Shown in pieces: positions 8,671 to 48,425 of a DNA stretch of 63,969 bases. Each line of letters opens with the position of its first letter. Within the stretch, counting starts at the first letter, position 1. The DNA is taken from assembly GCA_018402665.1 (NCBI GenBank), contig JAGYIN010000009.1:1-63969 (forward strand), given 5' to 3'. The notes under the pieces were generated by a model. It worked only from the letters and a program-made list of their open reading frames with translations. It made no database searches and was not told where the DNA came from. The translations under genes were made by a program, and so were the position numbers. The stretch is from Schleiferiaceae bacterium (GTDB lineage: Bacteria > Bacteroidota > Bacteroidia > Flavobacteriales > Schleiferiaceae).

Positions 8671-8691
8671 TGATGACTTTTTAATAGTAAG

Positions 8692-8717
8692 CCACGGTGT
8701 ACCGAAGTACACCGTGG
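8692..8717 (-). terminator. Hairpin with C(UUCG)G tetraloop after susD
   Basis: Perfect 11-bp arms CCACGGTGTAC / GTACACCGTGG (8692-8702 with 8707-8717). In the minus-strand transcript the loop is UUCG closed by C-G, an exceptionally stable tetraloop. No long T-run follows on the minus strand (CTTACTATT), so it may be an inefficient terminator or a 3' stabiliser that sets the susCD/BCCT ratio. Confidence 0.6.
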
Positions 8718-8747
8718 TCTATTTGCTTAACACTAGTTAGAAAGGAC

Positions 8748-10241: not shown

Positions 10242-10252
10242 TGTTATCGTTT

Positions 10253-20137: not shown

Positions 20138-21199
20138 TTAAAGTTTTATGAAGGTCGCTTGACTTTGGTACGTACTGCTCTTGAGAATGTAGCTATACAC
20201 CCCTGCAGAAAGGCCACTGAGATCAATCTCTGAGCCGCTGGAATAGTTTGCAACTTCCATTGCTTTTTGTCCAGTGCTTGAAAAAACAGTTAAACTTGCT
20301 TCGCTCAAATTATGGTGAATCTGTGCCGTACCCTGTGCGGGGTTAGGGTAAAATTTAGCCGTTTTTATGGATGATTCTTCCACACCTATTGAAGAGCTTT
20401 GGTATACCCGTACATAGTCTACAATCATAGGGCTCGATGTGAAACTAGAATCGATACTCCCTTGAATGGCGATGTTTAAGAGCAGGTATTGAGGTGCGTC
20501 AAAAGGCCAAGTACTTGCAGTTTGTGGACTGGGCTCATAGGTGTAATGTATCACGCTGTCCACGCTGAAAACCATTTTTTCTTCGCTCCATTCCAACGCA
20601 TAGGTATGGAAACCAGTTGAGGCTCCACTGACGTACTGGCCACCTACATTGATGGTTCCGCCAAAGCTCGATGGTGTATGCATTGCACTTGAAACATAAT
20701 CCTGATTGTGACCCCAATGCTCCATAATGTCTATTTCGCCACAAGCCGGCCACCCAGTCGTGCCGTAACCTTGCGTGTACCAGTAAGCACCCACTTCGGT
20801 AATGTTCTGTCCAAGCAACCAAATAGCAGGCCATGTACCCACGCCGGTGGGCAATTGCGCGCGAACTTCAACGCGGCCATAGGTGAAGGCAAATTTCGAA
20901 TTTAAACGTGCTGAGGTATAGTCTTTGGTAACATTCTGATCGGTAAAGGACTCTTTTAGCGCAGTTAGATACAATGCGCCATTCTGTTGGTAGCTGTTTG
21001 TATCGCGGTTCGTATAATGTTGGATTTCTCCATTCCACCAGCTTTGTCCTGCATTCGGCAGTAGCGTTTGATGCCACCATTTTGAGGTGTCCACACCGCC
21101 TGTTCCATTGAATTCATCGGCCCACACTAGAGTGTCATAGACTTGTGCATTTAAGGAGTGAAGTGATAGGGTCAGAAAGAGTAGGAGTGTTTTTTTCAT
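20138..21199 (-). CDS. Secreted GH16 endo-beta-glucanase (laminarinase-like) with T9SS sorting domain
   Basis: 353 residues. Signal peptide MKKTLLLFLTLSLHSLNAQ; GH16 domain about 22-268 with the active-site motif EIDIME (Glu155, Asp157, Glu160) and the substrate cleft segment WPAIWLLG. From about residue 275 comes a type A T9SS C-terminal sorting domain: FYPNPAQGTAQI, then LTVFSSTGQ, LSGLSAGVYSYIL and FIKL. The EIDIME form with a preceding WPACG is typical of bacterial laminarinases and lichenases (EC 3.2.1.39 / 3.2.1.73). The protein is exported by Sec and then through T9SS to the surface or medium, where it would make the first cuts in beta-1,3-glucan. Convergent with the GH13 gene. Confidence 0.93.
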   Translation of the reverse strand: MKKTLLLFLTLSLHSLNAQVYDTLVWADEFNGTGGVDTSKWWHQTLLPNAGQSWWNGEIQHYTNRDTNSYQQNGALYLTALKESFTDQNVTKDYTSARLNSKFAFTYGRVEVRAQLPTGVGTWPAIWLLGQNITEVGAYWYTQGYGTTGWPACGEIDIMEHWGHNQDYVSSAMHTPSSFGGTINVGGQYVSGASTGFHTYALEWSEEKMVFSVDSVIHYTYEPSPQTASTWPFDAPQYLLLNIAIQGSIDSSFTSSPMIVDYVRVYQSSSIGVEESSIKTAKFYPNPAQGTAQIHHNLSEASLTVFSSTGQKAMEVANYSSGSEIDLSGLSAGVYSYILKSSTYQSQATFIKL

Positions 21200-21306: not shown

Positions 21307-22086
21307 TTATAAACGTTTGAAGTTTTGAATGATTTCCTCTCCGGTTTCAGTATTGATATAGGTTTGTTGGATCATGTCGGCACCCACTTTCGTGTAGTCG
21401 ATGGACCATTCACCTGCATAACCTTCTATGGAACCCACCTGAGCAACTTCCGTTACGCTTCCATCACCATTGTCGATAAACGCGCCATATCCGAAGTCCG
21501 CATGCTCTATGGAATCGTCTGACCACGTATGGTACCAAACAAAATGACCGCCACCAATCATTTTAATTTCTTTGAAATCAGTTACGCCTTCAATCGGGTT
21601 GCGCGAACTAAGTTGCCATAATCCATCATAAGGTGAAGCTTTACCTGTAAGACTGCTCCAGCTTTCGTAAAGATCAAAAGTGGAACTGTCCTCAAGTTGC
21701 ATGCCCTTGATTTCTTGTTCAAACCCACGCGTTGTTTTGCTTATGTTCAATTCAAACACGGTACCTGAATCAACAATGCCGTTAGCATTGTACAAAGGCG
21801 TCTCATAGAGCTTGCCATTTTTAGTTTGAACAGTACCGGCTCCAATAGAGGGACTGCCTGTTACGTCATTCCATGTAGCGAACATATAGCGGCCTTCAGC
21901 GTAGATTTTAATTTGCTGTGGCTCAAATGTTGCGGTGGAATCGGCATACGTCCAAACGGATTTGTCTAGCGAATAGGCCCCGTCTTCAAGAATGGGCGGT
22001 TCTGGGGTGGACACGAGGTCCTCTTGTGGCGCTGCACAGGAAATAGCGAGTAACCCTGCAGCCACCAAAAATGTGGTCGTTTTCAT
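21307..22086 (-). CDS. Lipocalin-like lipoprotein, internally duplicated
   Basis: 259 residues with a lipoprotein signal (LLAISC, Cys17). Two similar beta-rich halves are visible. Residues about 36-150 run from EDGAYSLDKSVWTY through IKIYAEGRYMFATW to DLYESWSSL. Residues about 151-259 run from YDGLWQLSSRN through IKMIGGGHFVWYHTW to the C-terminus. The repeated 'IK-x-Y-G/F-x-W' and 'Gly-x-Gly-xx-x-xx-G' pattern indicates a duplicated lipocalin-type barrel, as in many uncharacterised Bacteroidota lipoproteins. Ligand unknown. It lies 62 nt downstream of the SGNH fusion gene on the same strand and ends in a strong terminator. Confidence 0.65.
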   Translation of the reverse strand: MKTTTFLVAAGLLAISCAAPQEDLVSTPEPPILEDGAYSLDKSVWTYADSTATFEPQQIKIYAEGRYMFATWNDVTGSPSIGAGTVQTKNGKLYETPLYNANGIVDSGTVFELNISKTTRGFEQEIKGMQLEDSSTFDLYESWSSLTGKASPYDGLWQLSSRNPIEGVTDFKEIKMIGGGHFVWYHTWSDDSIEHADFGYGAFIDNGDGSVTEVAQVGSIEGYAGEWSIDYTKVGADMIQQTYINTETGEEIIQNFKRL

Positions 22087-22148: not shown

Positions 22149-23762
22149 TTAATGACCCGATGGTCCTTTAATCCCGGCATTTATTTCGATATCAATGAAA
22201 TTCTCTTGCGGGGTGATGGGGCAGGAATAGCCGTCAGTATACGCGCAATAGGGATTGTAGGCATAGTTAAAATCTAAGACCATGGTGGTTCCTTCAGGTA
22301 TGGTGATATCCATGAATCGGCCCGTGCCGTAGGTGCTCACCCCAGTTGTTTTATCCATAAAGGGGAGGAAGAGGTGGTCCTTGTATTCTTCTATGGCCAT
22401 CAATCGCTTGCTTTGGTAGAGGAACAACGCTAAAGTTTGTCCACGCAGTTCAAAGGTCGCCTTGGCATAACGGCGGTATTCTCGGCTTACACCAGAACTG
22501 GTGGCCATATTGAACCATGGTTCATTTTCGAGCACCAGAATTTGCGCCTCAACGGCCAACTCCGGATTATAGCTGAAGAATTCATGTCCGTGGAAGGCTG
22601 CGCGCTCTTCAGGTTTGAGAGGACTCGTCGCAGAATCGGTATAAAAATCGTCCAATTCCTGTTGGTACTTCAACACCTCTATTCGTTCCGGAGTAGCTAA
22701 AGGAACCAAGTCGCCTACAACTTCATTAGGCACTTCAAAGCTCAAGCTGTAGTGGTCGATTTTCAAACCATCACCTGTTGCACGCACGACACCAACGCCA
22801 CGGCACTTGCCCATGTGGGGTGAATTCAGACGCTCGTTGAACCAAAAAGTGTTTCCATTTCTATACCAATGGCGTTCGAAAGCCTCGAAGGTCCATGCGC
22901 TTTCTCTTCGGAAATAAGGTGCGGCCCATGCGCTAAATTCCCCTAAGTTCCAATACTCATCGCCGTCGGTGCCTTGGAAGACGCTTTTGTCATTATAAAA
23001 GGCTCCGAAATAAATAGCCGAATCTGCAGTAGCGGCAGCGAGGTGCCATTGGTCTATGAATGCATCAAGTGTTTGTTCTTCGGGGTGTGCATTACGAATT
23101 TCTTTCGCTATGTAATGACCTAGTCGATTGTTCCCTTCCTTGTTCAAGTGCAGTTCATCGAATATGAACAACGCTGGATCCACTTGTCCATTGTTATCAG
23201 TGAGCCAAGGCCAGCAATCCATGAAGTGGTAGTTGTATGCCTGGGCCAATTCCTCGAGTTGACTGTTGACCGCTTTATACCTCGCGAGGTGATCCCATCG
23301 AGAAGGCGAAGGTTTTGGTGAAAGAAGAAATACGGGAAGGTCAGGGTGCGTATACTGGATCCAATTCATAAGTTTCCAAGCGTCTGATTGAATATCAAAT
23401 ACTTTTCTTTGGTTTCCGTCTTCCTCTACATGCACAATATCATTATCCCCTTCATAGATAACGAGGATATCTGGTTCGGTGCCTGAAATGAGTTGCTCCT
23501 TGTAACGGTAAAGATCGTCGAAACACGAGCCTCCGATGCCGGCATTGACCACTTCGTATTCCGGGAACCATACAGCCATGTTATCCCAGAGTCGAAAGGT
23601 GGAGCTTCCGGCGAAAACAATCCTTGATTTTTCGTGAGGGAGTTTCTCAGTCGCTTTGATAATCTGACGTACGTCTTTGTCATAATTCTGACCGCATTGA
23701 CCGTGGGTAAGAGGAGCGTAGAGGAATAAAACGAAAACGGTAAATAATAGGCTCTTGTGCAT
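22149..23762 (-). CDS. Secreted SGNH hydrolase / NTF2-like / DUF1684 three-domain protein
   Basis: 537 residues with a signal peptide (to about residue 21, LTHGQ). Domain 1 (about 45-225) is an SGNH esterase: block I AGSSTFRLWD with Ser53, block II NAGIGG, block III GDND (Asn107), and the catalytic pair Asp202-xx-His205 in DELHLN. Domain 2 (about 230-352) looks NTF2/SnoaL-like: DQWHLAAATADSAIYFGAF, GTDGDEYWNLGEF, then VGVVRATGDGLKI. Domain 3 (about 360-532) is DUF1684-like: ELDDFYTDSATSPLKPEE, FELRGQTLALFLYQ, GRFMDI and LDFNYAYNPYCAY. Each domain is known separately. The single-chain combination is unusual to me. It lies head-to-head with the glucan operon and may deacylate or modify a glycan or lipid. 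Confidence 0.82.
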   Translation of the reverse strand: MHKSLLFTVFVLFLYAPLTHGQCGQNYDKDVRQIIKATEKLPHEKSRIVFAGSSTFRLWDNMAVWFPEYEVVNAGIGGSCFDDLYRYKEQLISGTEPDILVIYEGDNDIVHVEEDGNQRKVFDIQSDAWKLMNWIQYTHPDLPVFLLSPKPSPSRWDHLARYKAVNSQLEELAQAYNYHFMDCWPWLTDNNGQVDPALFIFDELHLNKEGNNRLGHYIAKEIRNAHPEEQTLDAFIDQWHLAAATADSAIYFGAFYNDKSVFQGTDGDEYWNLGEFSAWAAPYFRRESAWTFEAFERHWYRNGNTFWFNERLNSPHMGKCRGVGVVRATGDGLKIDHYSLSFEVPNEVVGDLVPLATPERIEVLKYQQELDDFYTDSATSPLKPEERAAFHGHEFFSYNPELAVEAQILVLENEPWFNMATSSGVSREYRRYAKATFELRGQTLALFLYQSKRLMAIEEYKDHLFLPFMDKTTGVSTYGTGRFMDITIPEGTTMVLDFNYAYNPYCAYTDGYSCPITPQENFIDIEINAGIKGPSGH

Positions 23763-24109: not shown

Positions 24110-27100
24110 ATGAAGACACACAAAGAAATTTACTTAGGCGCTCAAAAATTGGCCACCTCTTTTGATGAAGTTAGTGGAACAGAGGTTAAGATTGAGGGTG
24201 AGACTTACTATAAAATAGCGAACTACGACGCAATGCGCCCATTCTTTATGAGCATCGTAAGTAATTCAAACCACTGGATGTTTTTATCGAGCACGGGGGG
24301 ATTAACGGCTGGACGTAAAAACAGCAATTTTGCATTGTTTCCCTATTACACGGACGATAAAATCACAGAGTCTTCAGAGACGACTGGGTCGAAGACGGTA
24401 TGTTTGGTTACCCGTTCTGTTCAAACGAGTTTGTGGGAACCGTTCTCCTCGAAATATGAAGGCGTGTATAACTTAAGTCGCAACCTCTACAAAAACTCCT
24501 ACGGTAATAAGGTAAAGTTTGAGGAAGTGAATCACGACTTAGGTTTAACCTTTAGTTACGAATGGAACTCGAGTGATAAATTTGGTTTTGTCCGTAAATC
24601 CGCGTTAATCAATAACGGTGCATCGGCTGTTTCAGTCCAATTCATTGATGGACTCCAAAACTTGCTTCCTTATGGAGTAGAAGATGCGCTTCAGAATGCA
24701 AGCAGTAATCTAGTGGATGCCTATAAGAAGTGTGAACTCGAGGCCTCGGTAGGTTTAGGTCTGTTTTCCCTAAGTGCTATCATCGTAGATAAGGCAGAAC
24801 CAAGTGAGGCTTTACGTTCAAACGTGGCCTGGTCGCTTGGCAGACCAAACGCGACCAAACTATTGTCTTCAAAGCAATTGAATGCTTTCAGAAAAGGTGA
24901 ATGGCCTACACAAGAAGTTGATATTAAGGCGGAGCGTGGTGCATATATGATTTGCGACACCGTAGATCTGGATGCGGGTGCATCAGAGCACTGGAGTATT
25001 TTAGCGGATGTCAATAAAGGACCTGTTGAAGTCGCTAATCTCATGGCAGCTTTAGAACGTCCAGAAGCCCTAAAGGCGGAGGTCGCTGCAGATGTAGAAG
25101 AGGGTTCAGCGCATCTTGTGGAATTGGTCGCCGCTTCAGACGGTTTGCAACTTACGAATGATCGATTATTAAACATTCGCCATTTCGCAAATACCATGTT
25201 CAACATCATGCGTGGCGGGATATTTGACGATAATTATACCATCGAGAAGGCCGATTTTACCAACTACATTCACAAGGCAAACATTGAGTTGTTTAAAAGA
25301 GTTGAGGCGACGTTGAAAGAGCTTGAGGAGACCTTTACACTTCAAACATTGAAGAGCATCGCTGCCGACGCAACTGATGCAGATTTCAAACGCTTGAGTT
25401 ACGAATACCTCCCGCTAAAGTTTAGTCGTCGTCATGGTGACCCATCGCGCCCTTGGAATAAATTTTCGATCAACACGCGCAATGAAGTTGATGGATCTAA
25501 GATCTTAGATTATCAGGGAAACTGGCGAGATATTTTTCAGAATTGGGAAGCATTAGCGCATTCCTACCCTGAGTTTATGGAGGGAATGATTCATAAATTC
25601 TTAAATGCAACCACATTTGATGGCTACAATCCCTACCGCGTCATCAAAGACGGCTTTGATTGGGAAACCATTGAACCAGATAACCCTTGGTCTTATATTG
25701 GTTATTGGGGCGATCATCAAATCATCTACCTCCTCAAATTCCTCGAGTTCATTGAAGAATATTACCCTGGAACTTTAAAGGAATACTTTACCCAAGACCA
25801 CTTTGTCTATGCGAATGTTCCTTACCGTATCAAGGAGTATGGAGATCTTCTAAAAGATCCTAAGAACACTATTGATTTTGACCATGAGGCTGAAGAGGCT
25901 ATTCAAGCAAAACGTGCAAGCCTCGGTATTGACGGCGCCTTAATTGTCAACGCGAATGAGGCCATTCACAAGGTGAATTTTATTGAGAAAATCCTGGCAA
26001 CAGTGCTCGCAAAGGTTTCAAACTTTATTCCTGAAGGTGGAATTTGGATGAATACCCAGCGCCCGGAATGGAATGATGCCAATAATGCCTTAGTAGGTAA
26101 CGGCGTCAGCATGGTTACGTTGTATTATTTGCGTCGATTCCTAAGTTTTATGGACGGGTTGCTTGCTGATGCGGGTGAAGAAGTGAAGATTTCAGCGGAA
26201 TTGGCCACCTTCTTTACTAGTGTTAAAACAACGCTCGAGTCCCATCAAAATTTGTTAACTGGCTCCATTTCAGACGCCGATCGCAAGCGCGTTTTAGACG
26301 GTGTCGGTGAGCCAGCGAGTACTTACAGAAAACGCATTTATGAAAAAGGCTTTTCAGGAACGTATACTTCCGTTTCTTTAGCTGACGTTCGTTCGTTTGC
26401 ACAGACTGCAACTGCGTTCATGGAGCATTCAATCGACGCAAACAAGCGCAAGGACGGATTGTACCATGCTTACAACCTAATGACGGTTACAGAATCGGGT
26501 GTTAAAATCAGCTATCTGCCAGAGATGCTTGAAGGTCAAGTGGCCGTTTTGAGTTCAAAATATTTAAGCGCGCATGAAGGCGCTGGGGTTTTAGATGCCT
26601 TGAAAGCAAGCGCCTTATTCCGTGAAGATCAATACAGCTACATTTTATATCCGAACAAAGAGCTGCCCCGATTCGTCGATAAAAACTGTATTCCAGCGGC
26701 CCGTGCTGAAGCCTCAGAGCTCGTTAAAGTATTGGTTGCGGACGGAAATAAAACCGTCGTACTGCGGGACCGTAATGGACAATACCACTTTAACGGTATG
26801 TTCAATAATGTCAACAGTTTGCATGCGGCGCTAGATGCACTGCCGGCAAAATATGCAGCCCTTGTGACGAAAGATCGGACATTGTTAGCAACTGTATTTG
26901 AGGAAGTCTTCGATCATAAATCGTTCACTGGACGTTCGGGTACATTCTTCGGTTACGAAGGGCTGGGGTCCATTTATTGGCACATGGTCTCAAAACTACT
27001 GCTCGCTACCTATGAAAATACAAATGCTGCGTTAGAAGGAGATGATCCTGCGCTCGTCGGTAGAATGTTCGACCATTACTTTGAAATTTTAGCGGGTATT

Positions 27101-27559
27101 GGTGCACACAAATCACCTGAATTATATGGTGCGTTCCCAACGGATCCGTATTCTCATACACCAGGAGGAAAAGGCGCGCAACAGCCGGGCATGACGGGAC
27201 AAGTTAAAGAGGATTTGATCAGTCGCTTCGGAGAATTAGGCGTTCATGTCACGGGTGGCCAATTATCGTTTGTTCCAAAAATCCTTCGCAGCGAAGAGTT
27301 TTTGTCTGAGCCGAAAACATTCAACTACATCGCTTTAAACAACAAGAAAGAGCACATTGAACTTCAAGCAGGTTCGTTGGCCTTTACCTATTGTCAAGTT
27401 CCTATCGTTTACCGTTTAGGAGCTACCTCGAGCATTACCGTGATTACAGCATCCTCTACAAGCACTATCGAAGGAACAACACTGGGTAAAGAATGGACGA
27501 ATGAATTGTTCCAGCGCACCGGTAAAGTCGTTCGATTAGAGGTAACCGTGGTTAAATAA
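24110..27559 (+). CDS. GH149/GH161-like beta-1,3-glucan phosphorylase
   Basis: 1149 residues with no signal peptide, so cytosolic. The N-terminal beta domain contains NHWMFLSSTGGLTAGRKN and PYYTDDKI, as in GH94-related phosphorylases. The (alpha/alpha)6 core carries NPYRVIKDGFDWE and RPEWNDANNALVGNG near residues 652-666; the Asp in that motif (about 656) aligns by pattern with the catalytic acid of the GH94 'DWND' loop. Length and the long C-terminal part fit GH149 or GH161, which split beta-1,3-gluco-oligosaccharides with phosphate to alpha-glucose-1-phosphate. The family choice is from memory of the group, not a search. First gene of a six-gene operon. Confidence 0.72.
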   Translation: MKTHKEIYLGAQKLATSFDEVSGTEVKIEGETYYKIANYDAMRPFFMSIVSNSNHWMFLSSTGGLTAGRKNSNFALFPYYTDDKITESSETTGSKTVCLVTRSVQTSLWEPFSSKYEGVYNLSRNLYKNSYGNKVKFEEVNHDLGLTFSYEWNSSDKFGFVRKSALINNGASAVSVQFIDGLQNLLPYGVEDALQNASSNLVDAYKKCELEASVGLGLFSLSAIIVDKAEPSEALRSNVAWSLGRPNATKLLSSKQLNAFRKGEWPTQEVDIKAERGAYMICDTVDLDAGASEHWSILADVNKGPVEVANLMAALERPEALKAEVAADVEEGSAHLVELVAASDGLQLTNDRLLNIRHFANTMFNIMRGGIFDDNYTIEKADFTNYIHKANIELFKRVEATLKELEETFTLQTLKSIAADATDADFKRLSYEYLPLKFSRRHGDPSRPWNKFSINTRNEVDGSKILDYQGNWRDIFQNWEALAHSYPEFMEGMIHKFLNATTFDGYNPYRVIKDGFDWETIEPDNPWSYIGYWGDHQIIYLLKFLEFIEEYYPGTLKEYFTQDHFVYANVPYRIKEYGDLLKDPKNTIDFDHEAEEAIQAKRASLGIDGALIVNANEAIHKVNFIEKILATVLAKVSNFIPEGGIWMNTQRPEWNDANNALVGNGVSMVTLYYLRRFLSFMDGLLADAGEEVKISAELATFFTSVKTTLESHQNLLTGSISDADRKRVLDGVGEPASTYRKRIYEKGFSGTYTSVSLADVRSFAQTATAFMEHSIDANKRKDGLYHAYNLMTVTESGVKISYLPEMLEGQVAVLSSKYLSAHEGAGVLDALKASALFREDQYSYILYPNKELPRFVDKNCIPAARAEASELVKVLVADGNKTVVLRDRNGQYHFNGMFNNVNSLHAALDALPAKYAALVTKDRTLLATVFEEVFDHKSFTGRSGTFFGYEGLGSIYWHMVSKLLLATYENTNAALEGDDPALVGRMFDHYFEILAGIGAHKSPELYGAFPTDPYSHTPGGKGAQQPGMTGQVKEDLISRFGELGVHVTGGQLSFVPKILRSEEFLSEPKTFNYIALNNKKEHIELQAGSLAFTYCQVPIVYRLGATSSITVITASSTSTIEGTTLGKEWTNELFQRTGKVVRLEVTVVK

Positions 27560-27567
27560 GAATAGAG

Positions 27568-28827
27568 ATGAAACGAGGACTAAGAACTATAGCCGCATTA
27601 TTACTAGTTGCAGCAAGCTTATTTTCTTGTTCATCTAAAGAAACACCTATGACAAAATCTAAAGCCGCCGCTGAAATTTTAGGCAACCCTGAATACAGCG
27701 CTATTTCTTTTGGAGGCTACCGAGGAAAGGAGCGTGCTAAGCAACCTACCATCCCGCAGTTGAAGGAGGATTTGAAAATCATGTCCGCCATGGGCATTAA
27801 GATTTTACGCACGTACAACTTACAGTTGCCACATGCGTCGAATGTTTTAAAGGCCATTCGCGAATTGAAAGAAGAGGATCCGACGTTTGAAATGTACGTT
27901 ATGCTGGGTGCTTGGATGGATTGTATGAACGCATGGACTGACCATCCCGACCATTCAATAGAAGATGCTGTAAACAATGAAAGTGAAATTCAAAAAGCGG
28001 TGCGCTATGCGAACGAATACCCTGATATCGTAAAGGTAATTGCCGTCGGTAACGAAGCGATGGTGCATTGGGCGGCGAGCTATTTTGTACATCCTTCGGT
28101 CATTCTCAAGTATGTGAATTACTTACAAAAGTTGAAAAAGATGGGGAAATTATCGCCGGATTTATGGATTACCTCCTCAGATAACTTCGCCTCTTGGGGC
28201 GGAGGAGAATCGGACTACCATTTGCCTGAATTAGAAGAACTAGTTAAAGCAGTAGACTATGTCAGCGCACACACGTATCCGTTTCACGATACGCACTATA
28301 ACAATGCCTATTGGGATAGTCCCGCCGCAGATGAGGTAGGGTATTCTGACCACGACCGGGTACTTTCAGCCATGCAGCGTGCAGCTTTTTACGCACAAGG
28401 TCAATACGAAAGTGTGAAGGCTTATGTGCACGGAATTGATCCGGAAAAGCCTATACACATTGGAGAGACGGGATGGTCTTCTGTCAGCGTTGGTTTCTAC
28501 GGCAACAACGGTTCTTTTGCTGCAGATGAATATAAACAAGCGTTGTACTATCAAGCCATGCGTGAATGGACGGATGCGGAGGGCATCAGCTGTTTTTATT
28601 TCGAAGCATTTGATGAGCAATGGAAAGATCCTAACCATCCGGACGGATCAGAGAATCACTTTGGTTTAATCACGCTGGATGGAAAGGCAAAGTTTGCCTT
28701 GTGGGAATCAGTGGATAGGGGAGATTTTGAAGGATTATTTAGAGGTGGCAATCCCATTACTAAAACCTTTGAAGGAGATACAACGGCGATGCTCCAAACG
28801 GTAAGTGCGCCTAAAAGAAGAAAATAA
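27568..28827 (+). CDS. GH17 beta-1,3-glucanase-like lipoprotein
   Basis: 419 residues. A lipoprotein signal ends SLFSC (Cys21), followed by SSKETP. The TIM barrel includes ISFGGYRGKERAKQP, RTYNLQL and the acid/base Glu163 in AVGNEAMVHW. The strand YVSAHTYPFH leads to the nucleophile Glu300 in HIGETGWSS, the strict GH17 signature. Clan GH-A retaining enzymes of this family cut beta-1,3-glucan endolytically or transfer glucan chains. In marine Flavobacteriia, GH17 proteins of laminarin loci cut laminarin. It starts 8 nt after the phosphorylase stop and overlaps the next gene by one base (TAATG). Surface or periplasmic location follows from the lipobox. Confidence 0.9.
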   Translation: MKRGLRTIAALLLVAASLFSCSSKETPMTKSKAAAEILGNPEYSAISFGGYRGKERAKQPTIPQLKEDLKIMSAMGIKILRTYNLQLPHASNVLKAIRELKEEDPTFEMYVMLGAWMDCMNAWTDHPDHSIEDAVNNESEIQKAVRYANEYPDIVKVIAVGNEAMVHWAASYFVHPSVILKYVNYLQKLKKMGKLSPDLWITSSDNFASWGGGESDYHLPELEELVKAVDYVSAHTYPFHDTHYNNAYWDSPAADEVGYSDHDRVLSAMQRAAFYAQGQYESVKAYVHGIDPEKPIHIGETGWSSVSVGFYGNNGSFAADEYKQALYYQAMREWTDAEGISCFYFEAFDEQWKDPNHPDGSENHFGLITLDGKAKFALWESVDRGDFEGLFRGGNPITKTFEGDTTAMLQTVSAPKRRK

Positions 28828-29816
28828 TGAAGCGTATATTTTCGATGCTACTAGGTCTTGCAGTTCTGACGGCCTGTACAACAATGCCAGTAGAAGAAGC
28901 GGTAGTTACAGTACCAGACAACTCTTCGAACTACTTCAAAGCGATCTGCTATCATCCTGTTCCTGCCGGAGATACGCTCCGCAGCTGGGAAACGCTGGAT
29001 CAGGACCTTGCGCTCATGAAGGAGGCAGGTATCACAACAATCCGTGTTTATGTCCCCATCACTGAGGAGGCCGTTTTGGATAAAATAGCGGCTGCAGATA
29101 TGCGGGTCATTACAAGTTTTGGTTACAATCAAGACAGTATATACGATATTCTATCAGGCAGTTTTATCGACTATGTGGACCAATTCAAAGCTCACCCTGC
29201 TATTTTCCTCTGGGAATTAGGAAATGAGTACAACTACCACCCGGAGTGGTTTGGCGACGATTTGAATAATTGGTACAATGCCTTAGAACAAGCGGTAGAT
29301 GCGATACACGCCATAGATACACTGCACCCGGTAACCACTGCGCACGGTGAAATCCCTGATTCTTTGGCACTGTACAAAGGCCGCAATCTTGACATGTGGG
29401 GCTTTAACGTCTACCGTTGGGATGTGCCTGGGTCGTTCTTTGCGGATTGGGCAAAGACCAGCGATCAACCGTTTTATTTTTCCGAAGTGGGCACGGATAG
29501 TTACATGACCGTAGCAACAGATTCCTTTGCACAAGGGGAGAACCAGAACGCACAAGCTGCTGCTGTTGCACATATTTTAGATGAAATTTTGGCACATGAG
29601 GGCCAATTCCAAGGGATCACATTGTTCTCTTTTACCGACGGTTGGTGGAAAGCAGGCAATCCCGATACACAAGATATTGGCGGTTGGGCGCCTCACAGTT
29701 CTGGCGTACCTTATGACGGCTCACCAAACGAAGAGTATTGGGGTATTGTGGATATCAATAGAGCGAAAAAGCAGGTTTTTGAGGTGGTCAAAGAGCGTTT
29801 CACAAAAGCACAATAG
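28827..29816 (+). CDS. Clan GH-A glycoside hydrolase-like lipoprotein, family unresolved
   Basis: 329 residues. Lipoprotein signal MKRIFSMLLGLAVLTAC (Cys17). A single TIM barrel contains TIRVYVPITEEAVLDKI (strand 2), FLWELGNEYNY with a candidate acid/base Glu134 after strand 4, GFNVYRW, and FYFSEVGTDSY with candidate nucleophile Glu220 after strand 7. This places it in clan GH-A, similar to the barrel of GH2 or to beta-1,3-glucan-active families such as GH158 or GH72, but no single family is certain. It is translationally coupled to the GH17 gene, and the next gene (GH30) begins 1 nt after its stop, so it belongs to the glucan pathway. Confidence 0.72.
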   Translation: MKRIFSMLLGLAVLTACTTMPVEEAVVTVPDNSSNYFKAICYHPVPAGDTLRSWETLDQDLALMKEAGITTIRVYVPITEEAVLDKIAAADMRVITSFGYNQDSIYDILSGSFIDYVDQFKAHPAIFLWELGNEYNYHPEWFGDDLNNWYNALEQAVDAIHAIDTLHPVTTAHGEIPDSLALYKGRNLDMWGFNVYRWDVPGSFFADWAKTSDQPFYFSEVGTDSYMTVATDSFAQGENQNAQAAAVAHILDEILAHEGQFQGITLFSFTDGWWKAGNPDTQDIGGWAPHSSGVPYDGSPNEEYWGIVDINRAKKQVFEVVKERFTKAQ

Positions 29817-29817
29817 C

Positions 29818-31305
29818 ATGAGAAAATCGGTTTGGTTCTTACTTTCAGTCATTGCCCTAGTCAGTTGTACATCAAAAAACACAATCAACATGAATGTTTT
29901 TGAAACCTCCGCGAGCGGCAATTTACATGCGGTTAAAGATGATTTTCAGAAAACAGAACAACATTCAGCCGTTACGATTGACACGAAAAAAAGAAAACAA
30001 ACCATCATAGGCTTTGGCGGCGCTTTCACTGAAGCCACAGCGCATAACATCAACTTACTAAGTCCTGAAAATAGAGCAGCAATTATTGAAGCGTATTTCG
30101 GTGAAGAAGGTGCAGCGTATTCATTGACGCGCACACACATGAATTCTTGCGATTTTTCTGTTTCAAATTATTCCTACACCCCGGTTGAAGGAGATACGTT
30201 GCTTGAGCACTTCAACATCGACCCGGATCGCGCAGATATCCTTCCAATGATTAAAGATGCACAAGGGGTTTCAAAAGAAGGGTTTAAGATATTTGGTTCC
30301 CCATGGTCGGCAGCACCGTGGATGAAGGACAACAATAACTACGTAGGCGGGAAACTCAAAAAAGAATACTACCATACGTGGGCCTTGTTTTTTAGCAAAT
30401 ATGTTGACGCCTATCGTGAAGAAGGTATTGATATTTGGGGTTTTACGGTAGAAAACGAGCCGAACGGTAACGGGAATAATTGGGAGAGTATGCATTACTC
30501 GCCTGAGGAAATGACTGATTTTGTCGTGAATCATCTAGGGCCTCAGCTCGAAGCCGACGGAAAAGGCAATCTCATTATCATGGGATACGACCAGAACCGC
30601 CAGGGAGTCCCCGAATGGGCAGATGCGATGTACCGTGACGATACCACAAAGCGCTACTACGACGGTATGGCCGTGCATTGGTACGAGAGTACCTATGACT
30701 ATTTTCCAGATATGCTTGACTATGCGCGACAGGCGGCACCTGAGAAGATCTTACTTCAAACTGAAGCATGTATAGATAATCAGGTCCCTGTTTGGCGCGA
30801 TGATGCTTGGTATTGGCAAAAAGAGGCGACCGATTGGGGCTACTACTGGCGAGAAGAAGAAAACCGCTACCTCCATCCGAAATACGCACCGGTGAATCGC
30901 TATGCAAGAGACATTATCGGATGTTTGAACCATTGGGTTCAGGGCTGGGTAGATTGGAATATGGTTTTAGATACGCAGGGCGGGCCTAATTGGGCTAAAA
31001 ACTGGTGTATCGCACCCATTATCGTCGATCCCGAAAAGGATGAGGTTTACTACACACCGCTTTATTACGTGATGAAACATTTTAGTAAGCACATCCGTCC
31101 TGGAGCGCAAGTCCTGGAGGTGAACCACACGGACGGTGACCTCATGGTAACGGCAGCTGAAAATGAGAATGGCTCCATCGTAGTAGTGGTCTTTAACGAG
31201 GGTGAGCAGCCAAGAAGTTTTGATTTGAACATTAATGGAACGGAGCGATTGATTGCTATTGAGGCGCAAGCCCTTCAAACCATTGTAATAGCACCTAAAC
31301 AATAG
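29818..31305 (+). CDS. GH30 beta-1,6-glucanase/glucosidase-like lipoprotein
   Basis: 495 residues from the ATG at 29818; the frame is open far upstream, inside the previous gene, but the lipoprotein signal MRKSVWFLLSVIALVSC (Cys17) fixes the start. Barrel landmarks are IIGFGGAFTEATAHN, SPWSAAPWMKDN, the acid/base Glu214 in FTVENEPNG, and the nucleophile Glu316 in LLQTEACID; a C-terminal beta-sandwich ends the protein. The pattern fits GH30 subfamilies 1 and 3. GH30_3 removes beta-1,6-linked glucose, the branches of laminarin, and has been described from laminarin loci of Formosa. It precedes the transporter gene by 4 nt. Confidence 0.9.
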   Translation: MRKSVWFLLSVIALVSCTSKNTINMNVFETSASGNLHAVKDDFQKTEQHSAVTIDTKKRKQTIIGFGGAFTEATAHNINLLSPENRAAIIEAYFGEEGAAYSLTRTHMNSCDFSVSNYSYTPVEGDTLLEHFNIDPDRADILPMIKDAQGVSKEGFKIFGSPWSAAPWMKDNNNYVGGKLKKEYYHTWALFFSKYVDAYREEGIDIWGFTVENEPNGNGNNWESMHYSPEEMTDFVVNHLGPQLEADGKGNLIIMGYDQNRQGVPEWADAMYRDDTTKRYYDGMAVHWYESTYDYFPDMLDYARQAAPEKILLQTEACIDNQVPVWRDDAWYWQKEATDWGYYWREEENRYLHPKYAPVNRYARDIIGCLNHWVQGWVDWNMVLDTQGGPNWAKNWCIAPIIVDPEKDEVYYTPLYYVMKHFSKHIRPGAQVLEVNHTDGDLMVTAAENENGSIVVVVFNEGEQPRSFDLNINGTERLIAIEAQALQTIVIAPKQ

Positions 31306-31309
31306 TCTT

Positions 31310-32722
31310 ATGAGTGAAGTAGCGTCAACAAAAGTTCCTATGGGCCAGAAGATTGCTTTTGGAGTTGGAATGTTAGCGAATCAGATGTTCCCAGCTGCCA
31401 TGAGTATTTTCATGGTCGTGTTGGTACAAGATTTAGGTTTTCCTGGATGGATGTGGGGGGTAATCTTTTTCGCGCCTCGTGCTTTTGATGCCATTTTAGA
31501 TCCTATCATGGGTTTTATCTCTGACAATACACGTTCGCGCTGGGGTCGTCGAAGAAAGTATGTTTTCGTTGGCGCGTTATTAATGGGTATTTCCTTCATC
31601 TTATTGTGGCAAGTCTACCGTGAAAATACACTGCCCTACAACTTTACATATTTCTTACTTTGGTCGTTCGTGTTCTATTTAGGTCTTACCATTTTCGGAG
31701 TACCGTACGTCAGTATGGGCTATGAGATGAGTAATGATTTTCACGAGCGCACGACAGTGATGGCAATCTCGCAATGGATTGGTCAATGGGCATGGGTCAT
31801 TGCGCCTTGGTTTTGGGTCATTATGTACGACCCTGAATGGTTCCCATCTGGAGATGTGGCGACTCGGACCCTGGCAGTCTGGGTAGGCGTTGTATTTACG
31901 ATCTGTGCTATGGTACCTGCGATTTTCATTAAAGGAGAATCCACCTTAGACCGGACCGATTATGAATCCCTGAGCCTTGGAAATATCATTCGCAGTTTAG
32001 GAAGCATTCGCAGAAGTTTCGTTGAGGCATTTGCATTGCCTTCCTTCCGTAAGTTGTGTATCACGACGTTCTTAATCTTTAACGGCTTCAATACTATAGC
32101 GAGTTTTACCTTCTTCATCATAAAGAGTCATTTGTTTAACGACGATGCCTCAGCCGTGGGAGTTTGGCCTACACTCTTTGGTAGTGTTGGTGCACTTGTG
32201 ACAACGTTCTTGGTCATTCCTATTGTAGCTAGAATGTCAAAAACATTAGGTAAAAAGCGTGCTTTCATCATCTCTCAGAGCATCTCCATCATTGGATACA
32301 TTATGCTTTGGTTCTTGATGGTTCCAGGGAAACCGTACCTGTTTTTATTCGCACTACCGTTCCACTCTTTCGGTATCGGTGGTTTGTTTACCATCATGAT
32401 GTCTATGACGTCAGATGTTTTGGACATCGACGAATTGAAAACCGGAAAGCGTCGTGAAGGTGTGTTCGGTGCCATCTATTGGTGGATGGTGAAGCTTGGC
32501 TTTGCTTTTGCCGGAGCATTAAGTGGATTGATTCTCACGCTGGTGAATTACCAAAGTGGTGCAGTGGCGCAACCGGAAGGTGCTGTAGACCAATTAAGAA
32601 TGGTCTTCTCTGGACTACCTATACTCTGTACGCTGATCGCTATTGCCGTGATGTGGAATTATGGTGTCGATGAAAAATATGCGCGTGAGGTCCGCGCGAA
32701 ATTGGACCAACGAAACCAATAA
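31310..32722 (+). CDS. GPH-family (MelB-like) sugar:cation symporter
   Basis: 470 residues with about twelve transmembrane helices. The glycoside-pentoside-hexuronide signature is clear: RAFDAILDPIMGFISDN in TM2, then RSRWGRRRKYVFVGALL. A second MFS-like loop is KTLGKKRAFIISQS. The segment LKTGKRREGVFGAIYW near TM11 also fits the family. Such symporters bring oligosaccharides across the inner membrane with Na+ or H+. Placed inside the operon between the exported GH30 and the cytosolic GH17, it most likely imports beta-gluco-oligosaccharides for the phosphorylase. Confidence 0.9.
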   Translation: MSEVASTKVPMGQKIAFGVGMLANQMFPAAMSIFMVVLVQDLGFPGWMWGVIFFAPRAFDAILDPIMGFISDNTRSRWGRRRKYVFVGALLMGISFILLWQVYRENTLPYNFTYFLLWSFVFYLGLTIFGVPYVSMGYEMSNDFHERTTVMAISQWIGQWAWVIAPWFWVIMYDPEWFPSGDVATRTLAVWVGVVFTICAMVPAIFIKGESTLDRTDYESLSLGNIIRSLGSIRRSFVEAFALPSFRKLCITTFLIFNGFNTIASFTFFIIKSHLFNDDASAVGVWPTLFGSVGALVTTFLVIPIVARMSKTLGKKRAFIISQSISIIGYIMLWFLMVPGKPYLFLFALPFHSFGIGGLFTIMMSMTSDVLDIDELKTGKRREGVFGAIYWWMVKLGFAFAGALSGLILTLVNYQSGAVAQPEGAVDQLRMVFSGLPILCTLIAIAVMWNYGVDEKYAREVRAKLDQRNQ

Positions 32723-32749
32723 ATCGATTAATTTTTTAAGGACGAAATC

Positions 32750-33634
32750 ATGTCGTTTAGAAAGGAAAAATTCATGTCATTGGCCGGTATTACGGCTGTT
32801 GAGCATCCTTTAGAGGAGCTAAAAAGTATTAGTCGAGAGTTGCTAGATGCTGGAATTCATGGCATCTGCTTTAGCGCCTATGACGAAGGCCAGCAGCCCG
32901 GTGACCAGCTCACGGAAGCTCAGGTTCGAAGAAAATTGAGCATTCTTAAGCCGCACATCTCGTGGGTACGCACCTTTTCCTGTACCGAGGGTAATGAGTT
33001 CATCGCTCAGATTGCACACGAAATGGGTATTAAAACTCTAGTCGGTGCATGGTTGGGGGACGATCTAGAGAAAAACGAAGCGGAGATTGCAGGCCTTATC
33101 GCTTTGTGTAAGGAAGGTGTAGTCGATGTCGCTGCCGTGGGGAACGAAGTGTTGTACCGTGAAGACCTTGAAGCGCCGGAATTGGTAAAATATATTGAGC
33201 GTGTAAAGGCTGAGGTTTCTGGTGTGCCCGTGGGTTATGTAGATGCCTATTATGAATTTACAGATCACCCAGAAGTCAGTGATGTATGTGATGTTATTCT
33301 GGCGAATTGTTACCCGTATTGGGAAGGCTGTGCTTTAGACTATTCGTTAATGTACATGAAACAGATGTACATGGAGGCAAAGATTGCCGGGAAGGGCAAG
33401 CCTGTATTAATCACTGAAACCGGTTGGCCGAGCAGTGGTCAAAGTATTGGTGGTGCGCAGGCCTCTTTTGAAAATAGCTTGAAGTATTTCATCAGTGCTC
33501 AGCGCTGGTCTGCTGCCGAAGACATTCCGATGTTCTATTTCTCTTCGTTCGATGAAAGTTGGAAGATTGAGAAGGAAGGCGATGTAGGTGCCTCTTGGGG
33601 CCTTTGGGACAAAGATGAGCACCTGAAGTTTTAA
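32750..33634 (+). CDS. GH17 glycoside hydrolase without signal peptide (cytosolic)
   Basis: 294 residues. A compact TIM barrel: SLAGITAVEHPLEELKS, WVRTFSCTEG, acid/base Glu133 in VAAVGNEVLYRED, ANCYPYWEG, and nucleophile Glu223 in LITETGWPSSGQ. There is no signal peptide or lipobox, unlike the GH17 at 27568, with which it shares only the family signature. It may therefore act on imported beta-1,3-gluco-oligosaccharides or on a side product that the phosphorylase cannot use. Start at 32750; Met9 is an alternative. It is the last operon gene, 27 nt after the symporter, and 49 nt upstream of era. Confidence 0.88.
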   Translation: MSFRKEKFMSLAGITAVEHPLEELKSISRELLDAGIHGICFSAYDEGQQPGDQLTEAQVRRKLSILKPHISWVRTFSCTEGNEFIAQIAHEMGIKTLVGAWLGDDLEKNEAEIAGLIALCKEGVVDVAAVGNEVLYREDLEAPELVKYIERVKAEVSGVPVGYVDAYYEFTDHPEVSDVCDVILANCYPYWEGCALDYSLMYMKQMYMEAKIAGKGKPVLITETGWPSSGQSIGGAQASFENSLKYFISAQRWSAAEDIPMFYFSSFDESWKIEKEGDVGASWGLWDKDEHLKF

Positions 33635-38365: not shown

Positions 38366-38968
38366 TCACAAATCGAAGAGGTTCAATTGGCTCGGTAGAA
38401 GTTGGAAGCTTTTGCGGTGGTGTTCCGTGGCTCCGTGGGTCTTAATGCCTTCTCGATGTGCTTTCGTTGGGTAGCCGGCGTTGCGCTCCCAGCCGTAGTG
38501 CGGATGGGCCAGTGCCAGTTCACGCATAACATCGTCGCGGTAAGTTTTTGCAAGGACCGAAGCGGCTGCAATATTCTGGTAGGTAGCGTCTCCTTTGACT
38601 TGGCAGTGGTGAGGGATGTTTTGATAAGGATGAAATCGGTTCCCATCGACGGCGATAAAGTGGGGTTGGGGATCCAATTGTGCAATGCTCCTATGCATCG
38701 CTTCGATACTTGCGTTCAAGATGTTCATCGAATCTATCTCCTCCGGACTTACGTGGGCAACTGCCCAGGCAATTGCTTCCTTTTCTATAATGGGTCGAAG
38801 CAGGTTGCGTTGTTTTTCGGTCAGCTGTTTGGAGTCGTTAAGCAGGTCATTTTTAAAATGAGGCGGTAAGATCACTGCAGCAGCCGTTACTGGCCCAGCA
38901 AGACAGCCACGACCCGCTTCATCCGTACCGGCTTCAATGATGACTATAGGCGAATGCTGGCGTTTCAT
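38366..38968 (-). CDS. rnhB: Ribonuclease HII
   Basis: 200 residues from the start at 38968; this overlaps the stop of the glycosyltransferase gene as ATGA, which decides for this Met over the upstream one at 39010. Active-site acids appear in [14 protein letters not shown] (Asp, Glu) and in [11 protein letters not shown]. The motif [19 protein letters not shown] is typical of type HII. The enzyme removes RNA, including single ribonucleotides, from DNA hybrids. It is co-transcribed with the GT4 gene, although unrelated in function. Confidence 0.96.
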
Positions 38969-40047
38969 TCCTGCAATGCTTCGATGAGTGCAGCGGCACT
39001 CTGTTCCCAATTAAAAAAGTCACCTCGCTGCAGCGCTCGCTCACGCCAGATCGAATTTTCTGTAGTGATTTGTTGCAAAGCGGCGCTCCACGCCTCCACA
39101 TCATAAGTAGAAACGAGCAATCCTGCAGTACCCACCACTTCAGTCAACGCACTGTTTTTTGAAGCAATGACAGCCGTTCCACACTGCATGGCTTCTACTA
39201 ATGGAATGCCAAATCCTTCCATGGCACTGGGCATGCAATAGGCAGTGGATCCACCGTAAAGCGCTTCAAGCGCCGGTCCTGAAAGTCTGCCCAACCAATC
39301 GATCCGGTCCGCATGTTTCAAAGAATTCCGAACGGCCTCGAAGGCAGGGTCTTTAAAGTGTGCGGCACCGGCAATTTTTAAGCGATGAGTGGCAGTGGGG
39401 TGTTTGGCGACCCAATGATCGAATGCCAGCAAAAGTGTGCGAAGATTTTTTCTAGGAGTAAGTGCGCCTACTGCACAGAAGTAGGGCGATTCGGTTTCCA
39501 TTTGGCCCGGTTTCATTTGCTGTTGTGGCGCATTATACGTCAGTGCAATTTTTTCGGGAGGTATGCCATAGGTGTTCGCGATGTCCTCAGCGCTCCATTG
39601 ACTAACGGTAAAGATTTGTTGTGCTTGAGCAGCACCCTTTCGAATCTGTTTTCGGTAATAGGTGGCTACATTATTTGGAACCCATTCTGGGTGGTGTTCA
39701 AAATTTAGATCGTGAATGGTGAGCCATTGTGGTATTGTGGTTTTTGCTGGAAGTCCATCCGGCGACCAATACAAATCTATACGAAGCTTCTTCAATGCGC
39801 GAGGCACGGAAAAGTCATTCCACAGCGTCCAGAGCAAAGGGTGACGCGCCTGCGGAGCAACAACATGGAAGTGAACATTTGGGAAGTCTAAAGAGCATTG
39901 GTCCGTAGCAATGCCACGGTCAAGCAGCAAATGAAATTCATGCTGAGGAAAAGTGGGAATGATCTGCTCAAGCATACGCAGGGTATAAATCCCTGTGCCT
40001 TCGAGTTTGTTTGGCAACAGCCATCGAGCATTAACCGCAATTTTCAT
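38965..40047 (-). CDS. Family 4 glycosyltransferase (GT-B fold)
   Basis: 360 residues. N-terminal [22 protein letters not shown], a central [13 protein letters not shown], and the C-terminal [19 protein letters not shown], which gives the E-x7-E motif of retaining GT4 enzymes. The domain binds a nucleotide sugar and transfers it to a polysaccharide precursor. It is divergent from the flippase gene and therefore probably part of the second polysaccharide cluster. A near-perfect promoter element lies 5 nt upstream. Confidence 0.93.
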
Positions 40048-40052
40048 AGTTT

Positions 40053-40060
40053 CAAATGTA
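40053..40060 (-). promoter_or_regulatory. Consensus -7 promoter element for the GT4 gene
   Basis: On the minus strand TACATTTG matches TAnnTTTG exactly. Its 3' end is 5 nt from the ATG at 40047, suggesting a leaderless or nearly leaderless mRNA. The divergent flippase starts 69 nt away. Confidence 0.5.
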
Positions 40061-40128
40061 CAAAAGCAGCGACTTGCACGTTACTAAAGCGGTATATTCG
40101 CCGACAATTCCTTGTTGAGGACAAAACC

Positions 40129-41460
40129 ATGGCCAATCGATTGTTGGATTTTCTTAAAGAACCCACCACTGCTTCCATAGCGAAGGGCAGCTTCATTGTG
40201 CTTTTCTTTAAGGTTGTTGGCGCATTAGGAGGCTACGTATTACTCTTCAGCTTGAGCGCTACAGGCGGTGAACGTGAGGTCGGGGTCTATGAAGTGGCTT
40301 TTACGTTGATTCTTATCGGCTCAACCATTGGACGTTGGGGGCTCGATACCCTATTGGTTAAAGCGCTCGGTCAGCAGCAGATGGAAGAAGCACCGTCAAG
40401 GCCGTTGTATTTAAAACTATTCACCCGTGTTTTAGGGGTTTCCGTCCTTATTTCTGCGGCAACCTTTGTTCTTGCGGCAACCTTTACCGATCTATTTTTC
40501 GATCAAACCCCCACCGCAGTGCTGACCACCGCATCTATCGCGATTGTTCCCTTTACCTTAATGTTGTTCAATGCTGAAGCGTACCGCGGATTGCACAAGC
40601 CGTTACTTTTTTCCTTGAATCAACACGGGACAGTGTATTTAGTGATTGCCGTGCTTCTGCTTATTGCACCCTGGTCCGATTGGAGTGGTGGTGCTATGGG
40701 AAGCGCCCAATTGGCCCTTATTGCACTGGTAGCTTTGAGCATGCTCTTCTTTTTATTGTCTTTCCAGCATATTCTGCGTCTCTGTAGTCCAGAGGCACCC
40801 GTCCCTAAGGCCTATTCGGGCGGATTATTCGCCTCAGCAACGCCCATGCTGATTTCCTCCGCGCTTTTTTTGGTCATGAGTTGGTCGGATACACTAATGC
40901 TGAGCTATTACCTCCCTGAAGAATCCGTAGGAGTGTACAGAATTGCATTTAAGATTACGACGTTAATTACTTTTGCCCAATTCGCGCTCAACACCGTAGT
41001 AACACCCATGATTGCGGGGCTTCATTCGGGCGGTTCGGGAATGGGCCATTTGGCCAAACGCGTGGCGACCTTAAACCTCTACACCGCGGGCCCGATCTTT
41101 TTATTGATTGTTCTTCTCGGTCCTTTTTTGATCGGGTTGTTTGGAGTCGAGTCAGCGGATAAAGCCTATCCATGGCTGCTCATTTTAGCTTTAGGCCAAT
41201 TAGCCAATGCCTTTGCCGGTCCCGTTCTTAACGTATTGAACATGACCGGTTATGAGAAGAGCGCACGCAATACTATGCTCGTGATGGCAACTGCAAATGT
41301 TGCACTAAATGCACTTTTGATACCGCTTCTAGGGCCTTTGGGTGCGGCAATTGCGACGGCGTCCACCATGATTGGTTGGAATCTATGGGCCGGTATCCTT
41401 GTTTACAAATACCACGGCTTAATCACCGTGCCGTTTTTGGCTAAAAAGAATGCGGTATGA
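40129..41460 (+). CDS. Polysaccharide flippase (Wzx/MATE-like)
   Basis: 443 residues from the ATG at 40129; a longer frame from 39898 overlaps the divergent GT4 gene and adds nothing hydrophobic or conserved. Twelve or more membrane helices are visible, with YVLLFSLSATGGEREVGVYE early, SSALFLVMSWSDTLMLSYYL in the middle and GPLGAAIATASTMIGWNLWA near the end. This is the oligosaccharide flippase / PST superfamily. It moves lipid-linked repeat units to the outer face of the inner membrane. It overlaps the sulfotransferase start (ATGATGA). Confidence 0.9.
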   Translation: MANRLLDFLKEPTTASIAKGSFIVLFFKVVGALGGYVLLFSLSATGGEREVGVYEVAFTLILIGSTIGRWGLDTLLVKALGQQQMEEAPSRPLYLKLFTRVLGVSVLISAATFVLAATFTDLFFDQTPTAVLTTASIAIVPFTLMLFNAEAYRGLHKPLLFSLNQHGTVYLVIAVLLLIAPWSDWSGGAMGSAQLALIALVALSMLFFLLSFQHILRLCSPEAPVPKAYSGGLFASATPMLISSALFLVMSWSDTLMLSYYLPEESVGVYRIAFKITTLITFAQFALNTVVTPMIAGLHSGGSGMGHLAKRVATLNLYTAGPIFLLIVLLGPFLIGLFGVESADKAYPWLLILALGQLANAFAGPVLNVLNMTGYEKSARNTMLVMATANVALNALLIPLLGPLGAAIATASTMIGWNLWAGILVYKYHGLITVPFLAKKNAV

Positions 41461-42395: not shown

Positions 42396-42401
42396 GAAGT
42401 T

Positions 42402-43409: not shown

Positions 43410-43413
43410 TATT

Positions 43414-48412: not shown

Positions 48413-48425
48413 GAAGTAACGAGAT

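Follow-up and report, generated by a model that had tools for sequence, protein, structure and literature searches.

A probable laminarin operon of a small-genome marine Schleiferiaceae bacterium: a known gene set whose SusCD partner is probably encoded elsewhere

Does a compact cluster of glycoside hydrolase (GH) genes with no SusCD pair beside it encode a laminarin pathway, and how much of the pathway, and of the arrangement, is new? The question is raised by a six-gene operon in a stretch of DNA of 63,969 nucleotides from a Schleiferiaceae bacterium (GCA_018402665.1, contig JAGYIN010000009.1). We call this stretch the window; it is an entire contig (C26) of a 1.95-Mb assembly that is 89% complete. 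The operon very probably encodes the periplasmic and cytosolic half of the "variant 1" laminarin pathway in a small-genome marine host, with its SusCD partner located elsewhere in the genome. Judged by sequence comparison, the arrangement is already described and the finding is mostly ordinary, because related loci contain the same set again and it corresponds to the published variant 1 polysaccharide utilization locus (PUL), including versions of it without SusCD. The operon combines GH149, GH17, GH30_1 and an MFS transporter in one cluster, which is what defines a variant 1 laminarin PUL.

The operon comprises six open reading frames (ORFs), all on the plus strand between 24110 and 33634 and separated by 8, -1, 1, 4 and 27 nt (Table 1), exactly as given in a preliminary description of this stretch. 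For gene 4, the mechanical ORF begins upstream at 29581, and the ATG used here is at 29818. The same description had called three lipoproteins and three proteins without signal peptide, and lipoboxes read by eye, not by a signal-peptide program, divide the genes in the same way: we find lipobox-type signals in gene 2 (LFSC), gene 3 (LTAC) and gene 4 (LVSC), and none in genes 1, 5 and 6. The family labels that follow come from comparison with Pfam, NCBIfam and PDB, not from CAZy models. By these comparisons gene 1 is a member of GH149. The NF058639 equivalog model scores 1747.5 bits (cut-off 1150) over residues 20-1147, and the GH149 structure 6hq6, which we take to be Pro_7066, scores 1496.6 bits over residues 15-1148; gene 1 is the sole match in the assembly. 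The preliminary description had named the phosphorylase as GH149 or GH161 and proposed comparing the protein with GH94, GH149 and GH161. GH149, a phosphorylase family, is retained. GH161 and GH94 are rejected, since the GH161 structure 9qqk and the cellobiose phosphorylase 9h8v score just 49.7 and 47 bits.

The partner genes fit a beta-1,3-glucan pathway. Gene 2 scores 33.1 bits with PF00332 (gathering score 28.2) and matches the GH17 structure 6fcg, presumably FbGH17A, at E 3.6e-164. Gene 4 had been labelled GH30_3. GH30_1 is the better label, because glucosylceramidase structures, which we take to represent GH30_1, reach about 245 bits, ahead of 5ngk (presumably GH30_3) at 169 bits, and because the model for the BT3312 endo-1,6-beta-glucanase, NF053856, scores 203.2, far below its cut-off of 700. 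From these matches, gene 4 is probably a beta-1,6-glucosidase that removes laminarin branches. Gene 5 scores 181.5 with the GPH model TIGR00792 (cut-off 231.35) and is a probable importer of laminari-oligosaccharides. The best solved relative of gene 6 is a beta-1,3-glucanosyltransferase (PDB 4wtp, E 1.5e-32), an activity that gene 6 probably shares; it is just 24% identical to gene 2.

The same partners accompany GH149 elsewhere. A contig scan gave 106 relatives of gene 1, of which the best 80 were retained as GH149 loci, and the tallies are taken over the 52 in which 8.5 kb or more follow GH149, the 28 shorter ones being left out. A GPH gene is found in 51 of the 52, a GH17 of the gene 2 type in 48, GH30 in 45, a cytosolic GH17 (alone or fused) in 39, and gene 3 in 34. 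The exception is L065, with none of the five partners, and gene order differs in some loci, such as L029, L032, L057 and L079. Ten ORFs across the 80 loci fuse the transporter to a GH17. Among the 52 loci, the fusion occurs in none of the 34 with gene 3 and in 9 of the 18 without it (Fisher p 1.3e-5, which is not a clean probability, as the loci are related). A crude hydropathy scan of five of the ten fused proteins showed no additional membrane helix by which their GH17 part would come to lie in the periplasm. Within the window's genus, represented by 24 draft genomes, GH149 is present in 22, in some of them as fragments, and was not found in the drafts G020 and G022. In the closest locus (L002), GH149 is 95% identical, and the flanking Era and Der are 99-100% identical. 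A divergent GH16 gene with a type IX secretion system (T9SS) sorting domain (20138-21199), overlooked in the preliminary description, belongs to the locus of the operon, and a GH16 lies near GH149 in relatives too (for instance L002, L005, L006, L009, L010 and L035). Outside the phylum, a contig labelled SAR86 cluster bacterium (Gammaproteobacteria; L076:10001-18573) carries all six genes in the same order at 53-58% identity, a possible case of transfer between phyla. A SAR86 version of the laminarin set is published (PMC10108472).

Gene 3 resists classification. The preliminary description counted it among three lipoproteins with TIM-barrel catalytic Glu pairs; it matches neither GH17 nor GH30, and the window protein reaches no Pfam or NCBIfam cut-off. 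We found 44 full-length relatives, 26 of which were aligned with the window protein (27 rows). All 27 rows touch the GH2 TIM-barrel model at E<=0.01. The window protein scores 19.2 with that model (GH2_C, PF02836; cut-off 21) and has no further GH2 domain within its 329 residues. We reject GH2 since the protein is under the barrel cut-off and is without the N-terminal sugar-binding and sandwich domains of that family. One relative (L069) exceeds the barrel cut-off (35.2 against 21), yet has no other GH2 domain. GH72 (PF03198) matches 21 of the 27 rows at E<=0.01 (best 2.7e-9), the window protein not being one of them, and the L069 relative scores 25.2 for a cut-off of 25.9. Searched against PDB, the gene 3 profile finds GH158(Pro) first (E 3.4e-13), in a match limited to profile positions 67-230 of 338. 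With the AlphaFold model of gene 3 (pLDDT 81), Foldseek ranks GH2 beta-galacturonidase and beta-glucuronidase barrels best and GH158 at rank 20 (E 2.4e-12), within the best 50 of the 750 matches that have E<=0.001. The GH158 endo-beta-1,3-glucanase (PDB 9oro/9p26) is a similar single-domain TIM barrel, at about 19% identity. At curated cut-offs, the window's gene 3 can be placed in none of GH2, GH72 and GH158. Two glutamates do not vary in any of the 27 rows: E134, which is part of an NE motif, and E220. They presumably match the acid/base residue and the nucleophile typical of clan GH-A; we take gene 3 for an unclassified enzyme of that clan.

Published loci such as GH149-GH0-GH30_1-GH17 contain a "GH0" that probably corresponds to gene 3. 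We equate the two because gene 3 is the sole gene between GH149 and GH30 in L074 (AB_MB380), a locus published with that order (PMC10108472). A GH17 was not found in the examined stretch of L074, and the correspondence is thus incomplete. In the Aurantivirga metagenome-assembled genome (MAG) AI_MB94_1, with GH149-GH0-GH16_3, the GH0 gene is reported to be one of the most highly expressed 10% of genes (PMC10108472). Across the order, sampled by 246 genomes at least 90% complete (the window's own excepted), the gene 3 profile matches 14 genomes at E<=1e-40. Thirteen of these have GH149 on the same contig at most 1.4 kb away, and 12 of the 13 belong to one genus; the fourteenth (G078) has a weaker match inside a 1093-aa frame and no GH149 match. 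In the same sample, 27 of the 40 genomes with GH149 have no gene 3 at this threshold. The ortholog count excludes nine distant relatives (24-26% identical, in ORFs of 586 to 1088 aa). Longer proteins, mostly of about 1050 aa, that resemble gene 3 over part of their length (24-26% identity) occur in nine loci where no gene 3 was found (L027:4360-7515, L054:3865-7032, L061:3899-7081 and six others), several of which also carry SusCD.

Which SusCD pair would serve the operon? As the preliminary description had it, there is no pair in the operon and one on either side, which we locate at 8748-13513 (SusCD1) and 45053-49835 (SusCD2). The only SusD matches on the contig are at 8847-10151 and 48513-49739, and the operon is not a PUL in the strict sense of adjacent susCD genes. 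Of the four SusD genes seen in the assembly, the window holds two, both SusD-like_2, and contigs C12 and C24 hold one each. The C24 pair, with a GH13 alpha-amylase nearby, looks like part of an alpha-glucan locus. The C12 locus consists of SusC, SusD, a 293-aa lipoprotein, a GH16 lipoprotein (both lipoproteins called by eye), a T9SS protein and a Reg_prop sensor, and holds the only other GH16 of the genome. Four of the five nearly full-length SusCs linked to GH149 (L028, L033, L042 and L064) match the C12 SusC best, at 571-600 bits, compared with 296-354 bits for C24, 107-133 for SusC1 and 113-130 for SusC2. All 11 SusD ORFs linked to GH149 match the C12 SusD best and have no match to the window SusDs at E 1e-4. 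The C12 SusD is present at 69% identity or more in 22 of the 24 congeners, with a fragment in G003 and nothing in G011, and the six-gene order of its locus was read in G009 and G012, five of the genes also in G020. In the window's assembly, the contig ends place the C12 pair and the operon at least about 66 kb apart. From these comparisons, the TonB pair of the operon is probably the C12 SusCD and neither of the window pairs; the idea that one of the latter is simply the partner was weighed against the SusC/SusD comparison and a search for SusD1 in 60 relatives, SusCD2 having had no separate search. Beside the SusCD-GH16-sensor locus of the congener G012 lies a T9SS GH5 gene with CBM6 (L094:1411-4107, minus strand); in the genome of the window, the sensor and the next conserved ORF are direct neighbours, where G012 has this gene in between.

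From the gene content, families, conservation and co-location described above, we infer the following substrate, compartments, order of steps, SusCD partner and activities. A secreted or surface GH16 would open the glucan outside the cell, and a SusCD encoded elsewhere, for which C12 is the best candidate, would carry the fragments into the periplasm. There, the lipoproteins would process them, GH30_1 by debranching, GH17 by cutting, and gene 3 by trimming or rearranging. The GPH-type symporter would move laminari-oligosaccharides across the inner membrane, cytosolic GH149 would release glucose-1-phosphate residue by residue, and the cytosolic GH17 would transfer or shorten oligosaccharides. 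GH3, the beta-glucosidase family searched, has its sole match in the 89%-complete assembly in a GH3/beta-lactamase fusion, so the phosphorylase is likely the terminal enzyme. The pathway that the preliminary description had proposed, of a laminarin-type beta-1,3-glucan with GPH-type import and cytosolic phosphorolysis, is supported by the families, their conservation and the published sets.

Several observations weigh against this reading, most of them against its SusCD partner. The T9SS protein of the C12 locus carries CBM48/AMPK-type domains, which would suit an alpha-glucan. The fifth SusC linked to GH149 (L069) prefers the C24 SusC, at 275 bits against 181 for C12. The C12 SusD occurs also in G020 and G022, the two drafts where GH149 was not found, and in the 20 congeners that have both C12 SusD and GH149, the two are on different contigs, only a weak sign that they lie far apart, given that contigs are short. 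In L015, a SusC 88% identical to SusC1 (a fragment at a contig end) lies 394 nt from a GH16 on the same strand. No promoter was found: the 347-nt gap between gene 1 and the divergent genes has no TAnnTTTG-type site on its plus strand, sigma-70-like promoter matches are only at chance level, and so are the counts of the promoter and terminator scans.

A more ambitious reading, and a rather unlikely one, makes two claims together: GH149 and GH17 would be the beta-1,3 counterpart of maltodextrin phosphorylase and amylomaltase, and gene 3 would found a new family of clan GH-A. If both were true, GH17 would take laminari-oligosaccharides that are short or branched once and recombine them into chains fit to be shortened by GH149, most imported glucose would become glucose-1-phosphate at no expense of ATP, and the role of gene 3 would be to prepare periplasmic fragments in lineages without the GPH-GH17 fusion.

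Because of the L015 locus, where its SusC is next to a GH16, we keep SusCD1 as a rival importer in an otherwise identical laminarin pathway. SusD1 and GH149 do share a contig in the window genome and in G001. In the window, however, 6.6 kb of other genes separate this pair from the GH16; SusD1 is found at 80% identity or more in just 9 of the 24 congeners, against 22 for GH149; a transporter of the BCCT (betaine/choline) type 35 nt after SusD1 suggests other cargo; and SusC1 scores 107-159 bits with the SusCs linked to GH149, where the C12 SusC has 571-600 in four of five. We consider this importer unlikely. SusC1, SusD1 and the BCCT transporter look like a single operon (7117-13513, minus strand).

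A target other than laminarin among the beta-1,3-glucans (mixed-linkage, callose, paramylon or fungal) is less probable still. GH149, GH17 and GH16 content alone cannot distinguish between beta-1,3-glucans, but GH30_1 with GH17 is the published signature of laminarin, with expression during growth on laminarin in Formosa (PMC6246565), and the set is expressed in diatom blooms (PMC10108472). Laminarin is an algal storage sugar whose turnover is a major marine flux, and the operon would add one more small-genome clade with the known machinery. In cells, phosphate is usually at levels that favour phosphorolysis, and the three lipoprotein hydrolases and the importer point to breakdown, so that it is highly improbable that GH149 runs in the synthetic direction and, with the GH17 transferase, builds a short branched beta-1,3/1,6-glucan for storage, even though gene 6 is nearest a glucanosyltransferase, phosphorolysis is reversible (PMC5827456), the Muricauda enzyme MlGH17B, without signal peptide, makes beta-1,6-linked products up to a degree of polymerization of 26 (PMC11005184), and a storage role has been proposed in print (PMC13188888, PMC11005184).

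Behind the operon, at a distance of 49 nt, lies era (NF000908; start read as the ATG at 33684), and next comes der, which owes its name here to EngA-type domains. On the divergent side, a GDSL-SnoaL_3-DUF1684 gene adjoins GH149 in close relatives also, and for the 259-aa protein next to it, L002 has a relative (86%) in the corresponding position. Between der and SusCD2, a polysaccharide synthesis block (38965-44850) includes glycosyltransferase, flippase-like, sulfotransferase, Wzz-like and O-antigen ligase-like genes, in an order kept in the congener G012 (L097).

Table 1. The six genes of the operon and the divergent genes upstream of it, in window coordinates.
Feature	Position	Strand	Length (aa)	Basis
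Gene 1, GH149 beta-1,3-glucan phosphorylase, probably cytosolic	24110..27559	+	1149	NF058639, PDB 6hq6
Gene 2, GH17 lipoprotein, probable periplasmic endo-beta-1,3-glucanase	27568..28827	+	419	PF00332, PDB 6fcg
Gene 3, unclassified lipoprotein TIM barrel, clan GH-A-like	28827..29816	+	329	candidate catalytic pair E134, E220
Gene 4, GH30 lipoprotein, nearest GH30_1	29818..31305	+	495	PF02055 248.7 bits
Gene 5, GPH-type MFS symporter	31310..32722	+	470	PF13347 (MFS_2) 218.4 bits, cut-off 27
Gene 6, cytosolic GH17	32750..33634	+	294	PF00332 49.1 bits, gathering score 28.2
GH16 with T9SS C-terminal sorting domain, probable secreted endo-glucanase	20138..21199	-		PF00722 77.5 bits, PF18962 38.3 bits
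Lipoprotein-like protein between the GH16 and GDSL genes	21307..22086	-	259	without Pfam family
GDSL-SnoaL-DUF1684 three-domain protein, divergent neighbour of GH149	22149..23762	-		PF13472, PF13474, PF07920

What the locus adds to the known systems is a conserved enzyme of the set, gene 3, that is without family or activity as far as the libraries used here tell, and an outer-membrane half that we place, probably, at a separate locus found throughout the genus. With the outer-membrane half at a separate locus, PUL predictors based on gene neighbourhood would score two incomplete systems. The sections of the laminarin literature consulted do not include such a split between an operon and a remote SusCD locus, though their silence does not prove it unpublished.

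Among known systems, the variant 1 PUL of Formosa sp. Hel1_33_131 likewise has GH149, a GH17A-type enzyme, GH30_1, an MFS transporter and a second GH17 (PMC6246565, PMC10108472); on laminarin, FbGH30 debranches and FbGH17A cuts endo, next to an MFS-GH17 fusion (PMC6246565). Compared with the Formosa locus as described there, the window operon has no adjacent SusCD, keeps GPH and GH17 separate, and has gene 3. A published relative without a SusCD pair is the NS4 MAG W_MB115 (PMC10108472). The Muricauda lutaonensis PUL shares the order GH17A-GH30_1-MFS-GH17B, with GH149 upstream; it also has GH2 and GH16 upstream, and its GH30_1 is predicted to be cytosolic, whereas the window GH30 has a lipobox (PMC13188888). 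Its GH17B, like gene 6, is without signal peptide, a glucanosyltransglycosylase of 295 residues (PMC11005184). Gene 3 of the window sits between GH17 and GH30, in difference to the order described for Muricauda. For the SusCD side, the variant C laminarin PUL of the VIS6 Cryomorphaceae combines SusCD with GH16, as the C12 locus does, and G012 shares with it the GH5 with CBM6 as well (PMC6794258). The Bacteroidetes GH149 clusters described in 2018 contain GH17 and/or GH16 with GH30_1 and/or GH3, some of them without susCD, and the gammaproteobacterial type II clusters pair a cytoplasmic GH17 with a pfam13347 transporter (PMC5827456). The window locus differs from the GH149 clusters in the consulted sections of that paper in that it adjoins era and der and has gene 3 and the divergent GDSL-SnoaL-DUF1684 gene, none of which is mentioned there (PMC5827456).

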